Assembly (NCBI GenBank): GCA_903882805.1
Contig: CAIRYK010000070.1
Location: 1-64,000, forward strand
Direction of reading: 5' to 3'
DNA from: an uncultured Bacteroidota bacterium
GTDB lineage: Bacteria; Bacteroidota; Bacteroidia; Chitinophagales; Chitinophagaceae
Length of the DNA stretch: 64,000 nt
The notes beneath the pieces were generated by a model, which was not told the DNA's origin, made no database searches, and was given only the letters and a program-made list of their open reading frames with translations. Shown here piece by piece: positions 57,608-61,785 of the stretch. The translations under genes were made by a program, and so were the position numbers. Numbering within the stretch: position 1 is the stretch's first letter; each line of letters starts with the position of its first letter.

Positions 57608-57640
57608 CACACTTCTATTTTTTAACAATATATCTTGTTT

Positions 57641-59857
57641 ATGACGCAACTTTTTTACCTCGTACCGGCTTTTGGTATACTTGCTTTGTTGTACACTTTC
57701 ATAAAAAGCTCCTGGGTTAGTAAGCAGGAGGCGGGCAACGACCGCATGAAAGAAATTTCTACTTACATTGCCGAGGGCGCAATGGCATTTTTGAAGGCCG
57801 AGTATAAGGTGCTGGGCTACTTTGTGGTAATAGCAGCTATTTTGCTGGCGGTAATGGGTCAAAGCAATCCACAGTCGAGCTGGATGATTGCTATTGCATT
57901 CGTAATAGGCGCTTTCTTCAGCGCATTAGCAGGATTTATAGGTATGCGCATAGCCACTAAGGCCAATGTACGTACAGCGCATGCTGCCCGCACCAGTCTT
58001 AGTAAGGCGCTCGCTGTTTCGTTTGGCGGCGGTAGCGTTATGGGCCTAGGCGTTGCTGGTTTGGCGGTGTTAGGTCTTGGCGGGTTATTCATCATCCTCA
58101 AAATGTACTTTGCACCAAACAGCGCAGTTGATAGCGCAGAAATGGAGCGTACCATCGAGGTGCTTACTGGTTTTTCTTTGGGCGCTGAGAGTATCGCATT
58201 GTTCGCGCGCGTTGGCGGAGGTATCTACACTAAGGCTGCCGACGTAGGCGCTGACCTCGTAGGTAAAGTAGAAGCCGGTATTCCGGAAGATGACCCAAGA
58301 AACCCTGCAACTATTGCCGACAACGTAGGCGACAACGTGGGTGACGTAGCTGGTATGGGCGCAGATTTGTTTGGCTCTTATGTGGCTACCGTTCTTGCTA
58401 CGATGGTTCTTGGCCGCGAAACAAGCTCAGCCGACCAGTTTAATGGCTATGCGCCAATCCTGTTGCCAATGCTTATAGCTGGTATCGGTATTGTATTATC
58501 TATTGTAGGCACTTTGTTCGTACGCGTTAGCGATGCTGCCGGCACTGGCACAGCCGCTGTACAGAAAGCGCTTAACATGGGCAACTGGGGATCTATTGTA
58601 CTTACAGGCGTTGTTTCTTATTTTCTGGTGAACTATTTATTGCCAGATACCATGACGCTTCGCGGTATTCCATTCACCAAAAATGGCGTATTCATAGCTA
58701 TTGTTGTAGGTCTTGCAGTAGGAACATTGATGAGTATCATCACTGAGTATTATACCGCTATGGGAAAACGCCCGGTAATGAGCATCATTCGTCAGTCATC
58801 TACAGGTCATGCTACAAACATCATCGGCGGTTTGGCTATAGGTATGGAGTCTACATTTTTGCCAATCATCGTTTTGGCAGCGGGCATTTTTGCAGCGCAC
58901 CATTTTGCTGGTCTTTATGGCGTGGCTATTGCAGCAGCAGGTATGATGGCAACAACTGCGATGCAGTTGGCTATCGATGCCTTTGGCCCGATTGCCGATA
59001 ATGCAGGTGGTATTGCAGAAATGAGTGAATTGCCTAAAGAAGTACGCGAAAAAACTGATATTCTGGATGCTGTAGGTAATACAACTGCCGCTACTGGTAA
59101 AGGCTTCGCTATCGCTTCAGCAGCGCTCACTTCACTGGCGCTGTTTGCAGCTTATGTGGGCGTGGTGCAGAAAAACAATTGCAACCTCGACGACGCTATC
59201 AACATATATAGCGCCGACGTATTGGCTGGTCTGTTCATTGGCGCTATGATTCCTTTCATATTCTCTTCTTTGGCTATTCGCGCAGTAGGCGAAGCTGCCA
59301 TGAGCATGGTGGAAGAAGTTCGTCGCCAGTTCCGCACTATACCAGGCATAATGGAAGGTACAGGCAAACCAGAATACGACAAATGTGTTGCGATATCTAC
59401 ACAGGCTTCTTTGCGTAAAATGATGTTGCCTGGCGCTATTACTATCCTGTCGCCATTGATTATTGGTTTTGTATTGGGCCCTGAAGTATTGGGCGGCTTC
59501 CTTGCCGGAGCTACAGTTAGCGGCGTGTTGATGGGAATGTTCCAGAACAATGCCGGCGGCGCATGGGATAACGCTAAAAAATCGTTTGAAAAAGGCGTAG
59601 AAATAAACGGACAGATATACTACAAAAAATCAGAACCACACAAAGCGTCTGTGACCGGCGATACTGTGGGCGATCCATTCAAGGATACATCTGGTCCTTC
59701 TATGAACATCCTGATCAAATTGATGTCAATCGTTGCGCTGGTTATCGCCCCAACCATTGCCAACTTACACCCAAGGGTTTCTAAATTTGCTAAACCAGCT
59801 ACTACTGAAGTAAAGGTATCGGTAGCGCCTGCAGCAAAAACACCAGCTACTATTTAA
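57641..59857 (+). CDS. hppA: Membrane-bound K+-dependent pyrophosphatase
   Basis: This 738-residue ion pump hydrolyses cytoplasmic pyrophosphate to move H+ or Na+. It has about 16 membrane segments and the substrate site [23 protein letters not shown] followed by [19 protein letters not shown]. The Ala-containing [10 protein letters not shown] indicates the K+-dependent class. ATG 57641 is preferred to a TTG two codons upstream. H+ versus Na+ specificity cannot be read confidently. Followed by a strong terminator. Confidence 0.95.
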
Positions 59858-59880
59858 TTTCTATTGAACATAATTCAGAA

Positions 59881-59910
59881 AAAGCCCCGAACGCAACTGT
59901 TCGGGGCTTT
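59881..59910 (+). terminator. Terminator after hppA
   Basis: AAAGCCCCGAAC pairs perfectly with GTTCGGGGCTTT around GCAACT, followed by a T tract. Confidence 0.95.
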
Positions 59911-59981
59911 TTTTATGCCGTATAAAATAAAGCATTGGCTATGGCGTTAAAATAAATACACCTGTATATACAAACCAACAA

Positions 59982-60296
59982 ATGCTCCGTAAACCATTTT
60001 CTTTTAAAGGTCGTATCGGTCAATCGGAATACGCTTTTTCGATGATGCTCTATTTTGCCTACTGTTTTCTGCTGAGCAAAATTGGATATTTGAGCGATGG
60101 ACCGGTTGCGGGTATGGTACTATTGCTGGGTTTTGCTATTGCAGTTTGGTTTTTGGTTGCTCAAGGTGCGAAGCGCAGCCACGATATTGGTAATAGCGGT
60201 TGGTACACATTTATACCGCTATATTTATTCTACTTTTTGTTCAAAGATGGCGATTCGGGCAACAACGCCTATGGCGCAAATCCTCGTGGCAAATAA
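59982..60296 (+). CDS. DUF805 membrane protein
   Basis: This 104-residue protein has the DUF805 pattern: FSFKGRIGQSEYAFS, two to three hydrophobic helices, AKRSHDIGNSGWYTFIPLY and a soluble tail with GDSGNNAYGANP. Inner-membrane, function unknown. Convergent with the CLC gene. Confidence 0.88.
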   Translation: MLRKPFSFKGRIGQSEYAFSMMLYFAYCFLLSKIGYLSDGPVAGMVLLLGFAIAVWFLVAQGAKRSHDIGNSGWYTFIPLYLFYFLFKDGDSGNNAYGANPRGK

Positions 60297-60324: not shown

Positions 60325-61584
60325 TTAGTGCGTAGCCATATGTTTTTTGTATATACTGTGCTTGCCGCTACACCAGTAAGCTACAAAACAGGCTACCACG
60401 AAATAAATAAAGTGAATAGGCCCAAATAACTCGAGGCCCATAATGGAACAAGCAAGCGGCGTATTGGCAGCCCCGGCAAACACTGCAATGAAACCAATAC
60501 CAGCCAGTAGGTCGATAGGCGCCCCAAGTGCAGCGGCAATGGATGCGCCCAATGTGGCGCCAATAAAAAACAAGGGCGTTACCTCGCCGCCCTTAAATCC
60601 ACTGCCAATAGTAATTGCCGTAAACACGAGCTTCAGCGCCCACGACCATCGCCCTACTCCGCCGGGATGAAAAGCATTGACGATAGATATTCCACCCGGA
60701 CTGGTAACACCTAACCCCAAATAATCGGCGGTATGAAGCGCCAAAGTGAGCGCAACAATAATAACTCCGCCAACCAAAGGCATCAACCAAAGGCGATTAC
60801 TGAACACTTTATTACCAGCCGCTTTTATAGTATGTGTGAGGTGTATGAACAAATAGGCTGCAACGCCAGACGCTGCTCCAGCCAATAATACAACGCTAAA
60901 TTCGCTGAAACTGCATGGCAAACCCACCCCCGCAAATAAATGCTGCGGTAAATAGGCTATATGATAGGCAGTGTGCCTTATACCCCAGGCAGCACATACC
61001 TCGTCTCCCGCAAAGCTAGCAATGAGGCAGGGCAAAAAAGCGCGGTAGCGGATATTGCCAAAGCTGATAACTTCGAGCGCAAAAATTGTTCCGGTAAGCG
61101 GCGTACCGAACACCGCGCCGAATCCGGCTGCTACACCCGCCATCAGCAATATACGTAATGCATCGGCAGGGAGCGCAAACCAGCGACCTAATAAAGCGGC
61201 CATACTGCCGCCTATCTGTACTGCGGTACCCTCGCGCCCCGCCGACCCGCCAAACAAATGCGTAATAATAGTAGTAACCAATACAAGCGGCGCCATGCGT
61301 GGAGGCACACCGGAGCCGGGGCTATGTATTTCGTCGATAATAAGCGCATTGCCCGCCTCGGCTGTCTTCCCCCACAACTTGTACAAAAAATGGATAGCAA
61401 TACCCGACAATGGTAGCAGATACAATAACCACAGATGCTGCCAACGAATGTTAGTAACCAGATCGAGCAACCATAAAAACAACGCCACCAAAGACCCTGA
61501 AAGCGCCGACACAGGTAACGTACAGGCACAAACCAACAATATTTGGCGGTAACTTAATCCAGATTTGTTTTTAGAATAATACAT
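60325..61584 (-). CDS. CLC-F-type fluoride/proton antiporter
   Basis: This 419-residue CLC-family protein expels fluoride. The ion-path motifs are of the CLC-F kind. GNALIIDEIH (78-87) matches the GNNLII-type segment, GREGTAVQIGG carries the gating Glu118, and GGEVTPLFFIGATLG stands near the C-terminus. True chloride-type proteins usually have GREGP and GGxFxP. Ten or more helices are visible; there is no CBS domain. The start is ATG 61584. The leader carries a fluoride riboswitch, which supports fluoride as substrate independently of the motifs. Product class is strong; transport was not tested. Confidence 0.9.
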   Translation of the reverse strand: MYYSKNKSGLSYRQILLVCACTLPVSALSGSLVALFLWLLDLVTNIRWQHLWLLYLLPLSGIAIHFLYKLWGKTAEAGNALIIDEIHSPGSGVPPRMAPLVLVTTIITHLFGGSAGREGTAVQIGGSMAALLGRWFALPADALRILLMAGVAAGFGAVFGTPLTGTIFALEVISFGNIRYRAFLPCLIASFAGDEVCAAWGIRHTAYHIAYLPQHLFAGVGLPCSFSEFSVVLLAGAASGVAAYLFIHLTHTIKAAGNKVFSNRLWLMPLVGGVIIVALTLALHTADYLGLGVTSPGGISIVNAFHPGGVGRWSWALKLVFTAITIGSGFKGGEVTPLFFIGATLGASIAAALGAPIDLLAGIGFIAVFAGAANTPLACSIMGLELFGPIHFIYFVVACFVAYWCSGKHSIYKKHMATH

Positions 61585-61587
61585 ATA

Positions 61588-61631
61588 CCTACAAATTAGT
61601 ACTGCCCAATGCTATGGACGAAATCTGTAGG
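61588..61631 (-). promoter_or_regulatory. Expression-platform helix of the fluoride riboswitch
   Basis: CCUACAGAUU (61631-61622) can pair with AAUUUGUAGG (61597-61588) over 10 bp with one G-U. The first arm includes the 3' end of the aptamer; the second lies 3 nt before the ATG. Without fluoride this helix could hide the start region. Confidence 0.55.
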
Positions 61632-61680
61632 CGCCATTAGCTGTTTAGCAGCGGTTGTATTCAGGAAGACACCATTTCCT
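61625..61680 (-). ncRNA. Fluoride (crcB) riboswitch aptamer
   Basis: On the minus strand the leader reads AGGAAAUGGUGUCUUCCU, then GAAUACAACC, then GCUGCUAAACAGC, then UAAUGGCGCCUACAG. P1 is AGGAA/UUCCU. The loop GGUGUC pairs with GGCGCC as the pseudoknot (two G-U). P3 is GCUG/CAGC. This is the arrangement of the Thermotoga petrophila aptamer, including AACC before P3 and UAC after the pseudoknot. One conserved position (UGAU) reads UAAU here. It lies 40 nt before the CLC-F start codon. Confidence 0.9.
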
Positions 61681-61785
61681 GTTTGTTGGGTAAAAATAAG
61701 TTATTGTTTGATAAGCTTAGTAATTATGTAAGCGCTTTTGCTGATCGTCCTTACTGAATATTAAGTGAATAGCGAAAAAACCTAT

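Follow-up and report, generated by a model that had tools for sequence, protein, structure and literature searches.

A fluoride riboswitch with a predicted switch helix abutting the start codon of a CLC-F antiporter gene in Chitinophagaceae

Control of CLC-F antiporters by fluoride riboswitches was reportedly described by Stockbridge (2012) and Baker (2012). The RNA itself was introduced in 2010 as the crcB motif, with overlapping terminators and a predicted ON logic (PMC2864571), and riboswitch control of CLC-F antiporters is established in PMC9495176, as the initial annotation of this DNA had stated. A 2026 study (PMC13273304) built covariation models of aptamer plus platform from terminator-filtered fluoride riboswitches; two translational fluoride riboswitches served as controls, and its authors say that a refined model may cover both kinds. 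An archaeal translational fluoride riboswitch is mentioned in PMC11077080. In the main text of PMC13273304 the string 'Bacteroid' does not occur. Among the papers listed in searches on fluoride riboswitches in Bacteroidota, with CLC-F or with start codons, and on Bacteroidetes riboswitches and Shine-Dalgarno sequences, subscription papers being mostly out of reach, no title or abstract opening describes a start-abutting platform in Bacteroidota.

Here we analyse such an aptamer in the window, meaning the whole 64,000-nt stretch of DNA from an uncultured Chitinophagaceae bacterium. We put the probability at about 0.86 that it belongs to an ON-type fluoride riboswitch acting on translation initiation of a CLC-F fluoride exporter.

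Aptamer, antiporter gene and genomic setting

The aptamer sits in the 5' leader of the CLC-F gene, with these features:

61691..61698, minus strand: promoter-like TATTTTTA, which matches TAnnTTTG in 7/8 letters and stops 2 nt short of where the aptamer model begins
61621..61688, minus strand: fluoride riboswitch aptamer (RF01734), 52 bits, E 1.5e-11
61662..61681, minus strand: P1 hairpin, 61681-61676 with 61667-61662 (predicted fold and Rfam alignment)
61668..61673, minus strand: pseudoknot 5' strand GGUGUC, complementary to GGCGCC, duplex -7.1 kcal/mol
61640..61652, minus strand: P3 hairpin, 61652-61649 with 61643-61640 (predicted fold and Rfam alignment)
61630..61635, minus strand: pseudoknot 3' strand GGCGCC, read from the sequence; its last three letters are common to the switch helix
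60325..61584, minus strand: CLC-F type fluoride/proton antiporter gene, 419 aa, ATG at 61584 (Pfam Voltage_CLC 221 bits, PDB matches)

The initial annotation had read a complete crcB-type aptamer here and had proposed a covariance search of the minus strand as a check. That search (cmscan) recovered RF01734 (Fluoride) at 61688-61621, well above the curated cut-off of 34 bits and across model positions 1-64 of 64; it is the sole Rfam match at the gathering threshold within the whole window. P1 and P3 both appear in the fold, and the pseudoknot strands (61673-61668 and 61635-61630) form six complementary pairs, two of them G-U. Judged by its sequence, the aptamer is a standard fluoride riboswitch of the known class RF01734. 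Its close placement upstream of the ATG was read correctly, with an actual gap of 36 nt rather than the 40 nt first given. A UGAU to UAAU change that had been singled out as noteworthy is real but ordinary, being found in 23/134 sites of the same family and in 2/34 sites outside it.

The next open frame after the aptamer (61584-60325, minus strand) encodes the 419-aa protein, whose closest solved relatives are the CLC-F chains 6d0j, 6d0k and 6d0n (E 3e-61 to 4e-60). The separation from other CLC proteins is wide, with 6d0j at E 3.3e-61 versus E 1.9e-5 for the next, non-CLC-F chain, 3nd0. The alignment to 6d0j, a distant relative, spans residues 10-413 and keeps the glutamates of both GREG and GGEVTP. 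The external and internal glutamates of CLC-F are E118 and E318 in the numbering of PMC12035849. Two NCBIfam chloride-channel models touch the protein, at scores far under their cut-offs. By its nearest solved proteins and its aligned motifs it is a CLC-F type antiporter, closest to solved CLC-F among CLC proteins, which bears out the earlier identification. The window protein as query gave a single CLC match in the genome, where one RF01734 site and no crcB family match were found. The riboswitch would accordingly guard the sole fluoride exporter found in this genome. A contig search for relatives of the protein returned one locus only (L061:2001-3167, in a record titled Puniceicoccales MAG), encoding a CLC-F relative 55% identical to it, with no RF01734 match in the locus searched; gene transfer or a binning error could account for it.

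Next to the CLC-F gene lies a DUF805 gene (59982-60296), followed by a sodium-translocating pyrophosphatase gene (57635-59857) that is convergent to the CLC-F gene and has a terminator-like hairpin behind it (59875-59915). Low-scoring RNA names near the window DUF805 gene largely reflect this hairpin; the neighbourhood of that gene contains no DUF805b match and no known RNA at gathering score. DUF805b RNA was seen below threshold in two other CLC-F loci (L037:345-380, 22.6 bits; L043:4072-4106, 30.0 bits; cut-off 35.6).

The promoter-like element was evaluated over the 134 family aptamers described below. Exact TAnnTTTG, which we take to be a Bacteroidota promoter element, has 94 occurrences upstream of them versus 5.1 in shuffles, and 85 of the 94 start 5-16 nt before the aptamer. 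We infer that the window's TATTTTTA, with one mismatch to this element, is a promoter.

A switch helix that co-varies across the family

Two further features link the aptamer to the start codon:

61622..61632, minus strand: switch helix 5' arm GCCUACAGAUU, pairing with 61597-61587 at probability 0.85-1.0; co-varies in relatives
61587..61597, minus strand: switch helix 3' arm AAUUUGUAGGU, reaching to 2 nt from the ATG (predicted fold, covariation)

A 10-bp alternative helix had been proposed between the aptamer 3' end and the start region. The helix is there, and in the predicted fold of 61690-61565 it extends to 11 contiguous pairs, two of them G-U. Its 5' arm takes GCC out of the pseudoknot strand GGCGCC, so a full-length helix cannot coexist with a fully formed ligand-bound fold; 3 of the 11 helix pairs overlap with the 6-pair pseudoknot. 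An equally good helix arose in 62/20000 mononucleotide shuffles of the downstream 43 nt of the window sequence, and because such single-sequence odds are modest, the main support for the helix is comparative. In a fold computed without pseudoknots, keeping the arm's first five letters free changed the openness predicted for the -15 to +9 region only from 0.33 to 0.56. In the window sequence, this fold also joins AAUACA in the linker between P1 and P3 to UGUAUU at the start codon.

Genomes of the same family carry RF01734 in 131/394 cases, 123 of them above the cut-off, and span 51/101 genera. Our comparison used 134 above-cut-off sites, the window included, and left out 14 weaker sites under the Rfam cut-off. 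In 108/134 a CLC-F match follows downstream, no more than 700 nt away. A helix scoring at least 14 between the aptamer tail and the 24 nt that precede the start is present in 102 of the 107 CLC-F leaders that have a start codon. The others are L013, L082, L120, L137 and L161; L082 and L161 have the arm under another start choice, and L013 has TTATTTGTAG past the chosen start. Mean helix scores were 20.5 for a leader's own arms, 16.9 for swapped arms and 9.8 for shuffled regions.

For a permutation test, 3' arms were aligned by whichever GG lies closest to the start, which kept 94 of 134 loci; the 40 dropped comprise 26 without a CLC-F match, one without a start codon (L109) and 13 in which no GG lies within 10 nt of the start that was chosen, and at least L030, L082, L113, L140 and L161 among them are misassigned starts where the arm is visible. 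Arm positions 4, 5, 6 and 7 hold standard pairs in 93, 93, 91 and 89 of the 94, with several pair types, and their observed Watson-Crick counts were reached in 0/2000 permutations. Positions 9 and 10 were matched in 3 and 1 of 2000, whereas positions 8, 11 and 12 were weak or null (61, 114 and 759 of 2000). At position 4, A stands opposite C in 0/90 loci, where ~11 would be expected under independence.

Shared ancestry was addressed on the CLC-F protein tree. An independent-pairs test at position 4 was not significant and, with 5 usable pairs, underpowered, so a tree-based simulation was added in which each 3' column was simulated along the tree (97 loci, ATG-first start rule, 500 runs). Positions 4-10 contain 592/679 pairs, versus a simulated mean of 507.0 (sd 33.6) and a maximum of 559. 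Taken singly, these seven positions had their observed values reached in 2, 2, 14, 4, 56, 30 and 0 of 500 simulations. Sliding the partner by 1-3 columns lowered pairing from 0.905 to 0.32-0.47. The comparison of homologous leaders suggested by the initial annotation therefore came out in favour of its helix: the two arms co-vary across the family beyond what the CLC-F protein tree explains.

These data also bear on the idea that conserved aptamer letters and a conserved motif before the start produce the helix as a by-product, with no switch at all. Identical CCTACAAAT and ATTTGTAGG letters do recur in many loci, and swapped arms still score well. As controls we took four CLC-F genes from this family at whose loci RF01734 gives no match (L035, L037, L043 and L047). 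L047 retains TTTGCAGG directly upstream of the ATG and L035 has similar letters, TTTTGTAAGC, upstream of its start, as a by-product would predict; such letters might be what a lost riboswitch could leave. However, L037 and L043 have no such arm, the arms change together in riboswitch-bearing loci (CCTGATTA with TAATCAGG, CCTGC with GCAGG), and pairing exceeds both every tree-based simulation and the slid controls. We regard a by-product as extremely unlikely. In L047 the CLC-F start is preceded by TAACTTTG and then the retained letters, with no aptamer; by sequence it looks as if a riboswitch had been deleted and the promoter had thereby come to lie beside the start.

Control at the start codon

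The Shine-Dalgarno core precedes 2/45 long window ORFs versus 2.4 expected by shuffling, under a crude choice of starts, and no 16S rRNA gene that would give the anti-Shine-Dalgarno tail was found in the assembly. The best PDB matches of the uS3 protein are chains 9i5v and 7jil, the latter from Flavobacterium johnsoniae, which places the genome in Bacteroidota by inference. To our knowledge, Bacteroidota appear not to use Shine-Dalgarno sequences. With the host clade seemingly of this kind, the helix most probably occludes the start region directly.

Downstream of the 3' arm the leader continues as AUAUGUAUUAUUCU, which contains no U-run. This bears on a transcriptional reading, in which the same helix would be an intrinsic terminator prevented by fluoride. 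Terminator-type platforms are the best studied among fluoride riboswitches (PMC13273304, PMC11077080). Some sites elsewhere in the phylum also look terminator-like by eye (L180, L182, L190, perhaps L169). An above-cut-off RF01734 site occurs in 35/296 genomes phylum-wide, the family included; among 34 sites compared outside the family, the arm lies close before the ATG in several (e.g. L167, L168, L175, L178, L181, L191, L198, L199) and is unconvincing in others (e.g. L171, L194, L197, L200, L203). In the window, however, an intrinsic terminator was considered for this leader and rejected: the missing U-tract makes termination unlikely, and a terminator scan listed two sites, both on the plus strand and none on the minus. 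Across the family, moreover, the arm runs directly into the start codon, which follows the 3' arm GG by 0-3 nt in 83/94 loci. A terminator switch thus seems very improbable at this locus.

Translational control, which the initial annotation had offered, best accounts for a leader that has no U-tract after its helix and a 3' arm right beside the ATG, and we hold it as the probable reading. What marks a translational riboswitch is found here, namely a predicted start-occluding helix exclusive with the ligand-bound fold and no intrinsic terminator from aptamer to start. From the computed aptamer, gene type, helix and covariation, we infer the following course of fluoride binding, switching and translational control. 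Transcription would probably start just upstream of P1. Without fluoride, the aptamer 3' end GCCUACAGAUU would pair with AAUUUGUAGGU directly before the AUG, and the closed helix would keep 30S subunits off the start region. In the presence of fluoride, the aptamer would close its pseudoknot and claim the GCC of the same arm; the helix could then not form fully, the start region would be freed and the antiporter would be made.

The closed helix might also act less directly, lowering translation and so leaving the mRNA open to decay or to Rho-dependent termination. Coupling of this kind has been reported elsewhere among riboswitches (in a title cited in PMC13273304), and it is compatible with everything in the sequence; we nevertheless hold it to be improbable relative to control at translation initiation itself.

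Related sites precede crcB-like genes. Among 60 sites examined, 23 were recognised as CrcB-like, a count in which L002 has a misassigned start and L166 is weak; in 11 a helix of at least 7 pairs extends into the ORF, and in 10 the third codon is AGG. At such loci the 3' arm enters the coding sequence, e.g. ATGTACAGGA or ATGAACAGGA, with the aptamer tail pairing to the start codon or codons 2-3. A script identified this arrangement in L003, L004, L007, L010, L012, L014, L024, L027, L069 and L077, and it was recognised by eye in L002 and L193; L017, L026, L078 and L088 do not fit it. In L026, L078, L094 and L152 the switch arm is followed by a short open frame or a bare ATG, and in the first three a crcB-like gene lies further downstream. 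The frame in L026, ATGAAATAA, stands just before crcB, which suggests translational coupling or a decayed gene. Five further loci (L090, L096, L105, L114 and L131) have a second fluoride aptamer ~2.7 kb downstream of the CLC-F riboswitch, ahead of an MFS-type transporter gene; two of the five, L114 and L131, were checked as Pfam MFS_1. This gene is possibly a further fluoride-linked transporter.

Relation to known fluoride riboswitches

Already known are the control of CLC-F genes by fluoride, fluoride riboswitches that act on translation, and the overlap of pseudoknot and platform. Compared with the RF01734 class, the window has a full-length match with P1, P3 and pseudoknot, and its platform draws on the 3' strand of the pseudoknot, an overlap that published models show as well. 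It differs from those models in that it has no terminator and its helix abuts the AUG. With the translational fluoride riboswitches of PMC13273304 and PMC11077080 it shares predicted control without intrinsic termination in a fluoride-aptamer leader. It differs from them, at the level of outline on which the platforms were compared, in that its clade seemingly lacks Shine-Dalgarno sequences and the arm flanks the AUG.

We consider it somewhat probable that the clade's fluoride riboswitches use a distinct family-wide translational platform without a Shine-Dalgarno sequence, in which the aptamer tail would pair with AUG-flanking nucleotides and, where the gene is crcB, with the AUG itself and codons 2-3, constraining the first codons (Met-x-Arg, AGG as codon 3). 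Covariation supports aptamer and platform together, and the locus offers a clean, testable case of riboswitch translational control in bacteria seemingly without Shine-Dalgarno pairing. Set against the known systems, this is a modest twist: a family-wide platform that abuts the AUG, apparently without a Shine-Dalgarno sequence, and whose arm enters the coding sequence in the crcB relatives.
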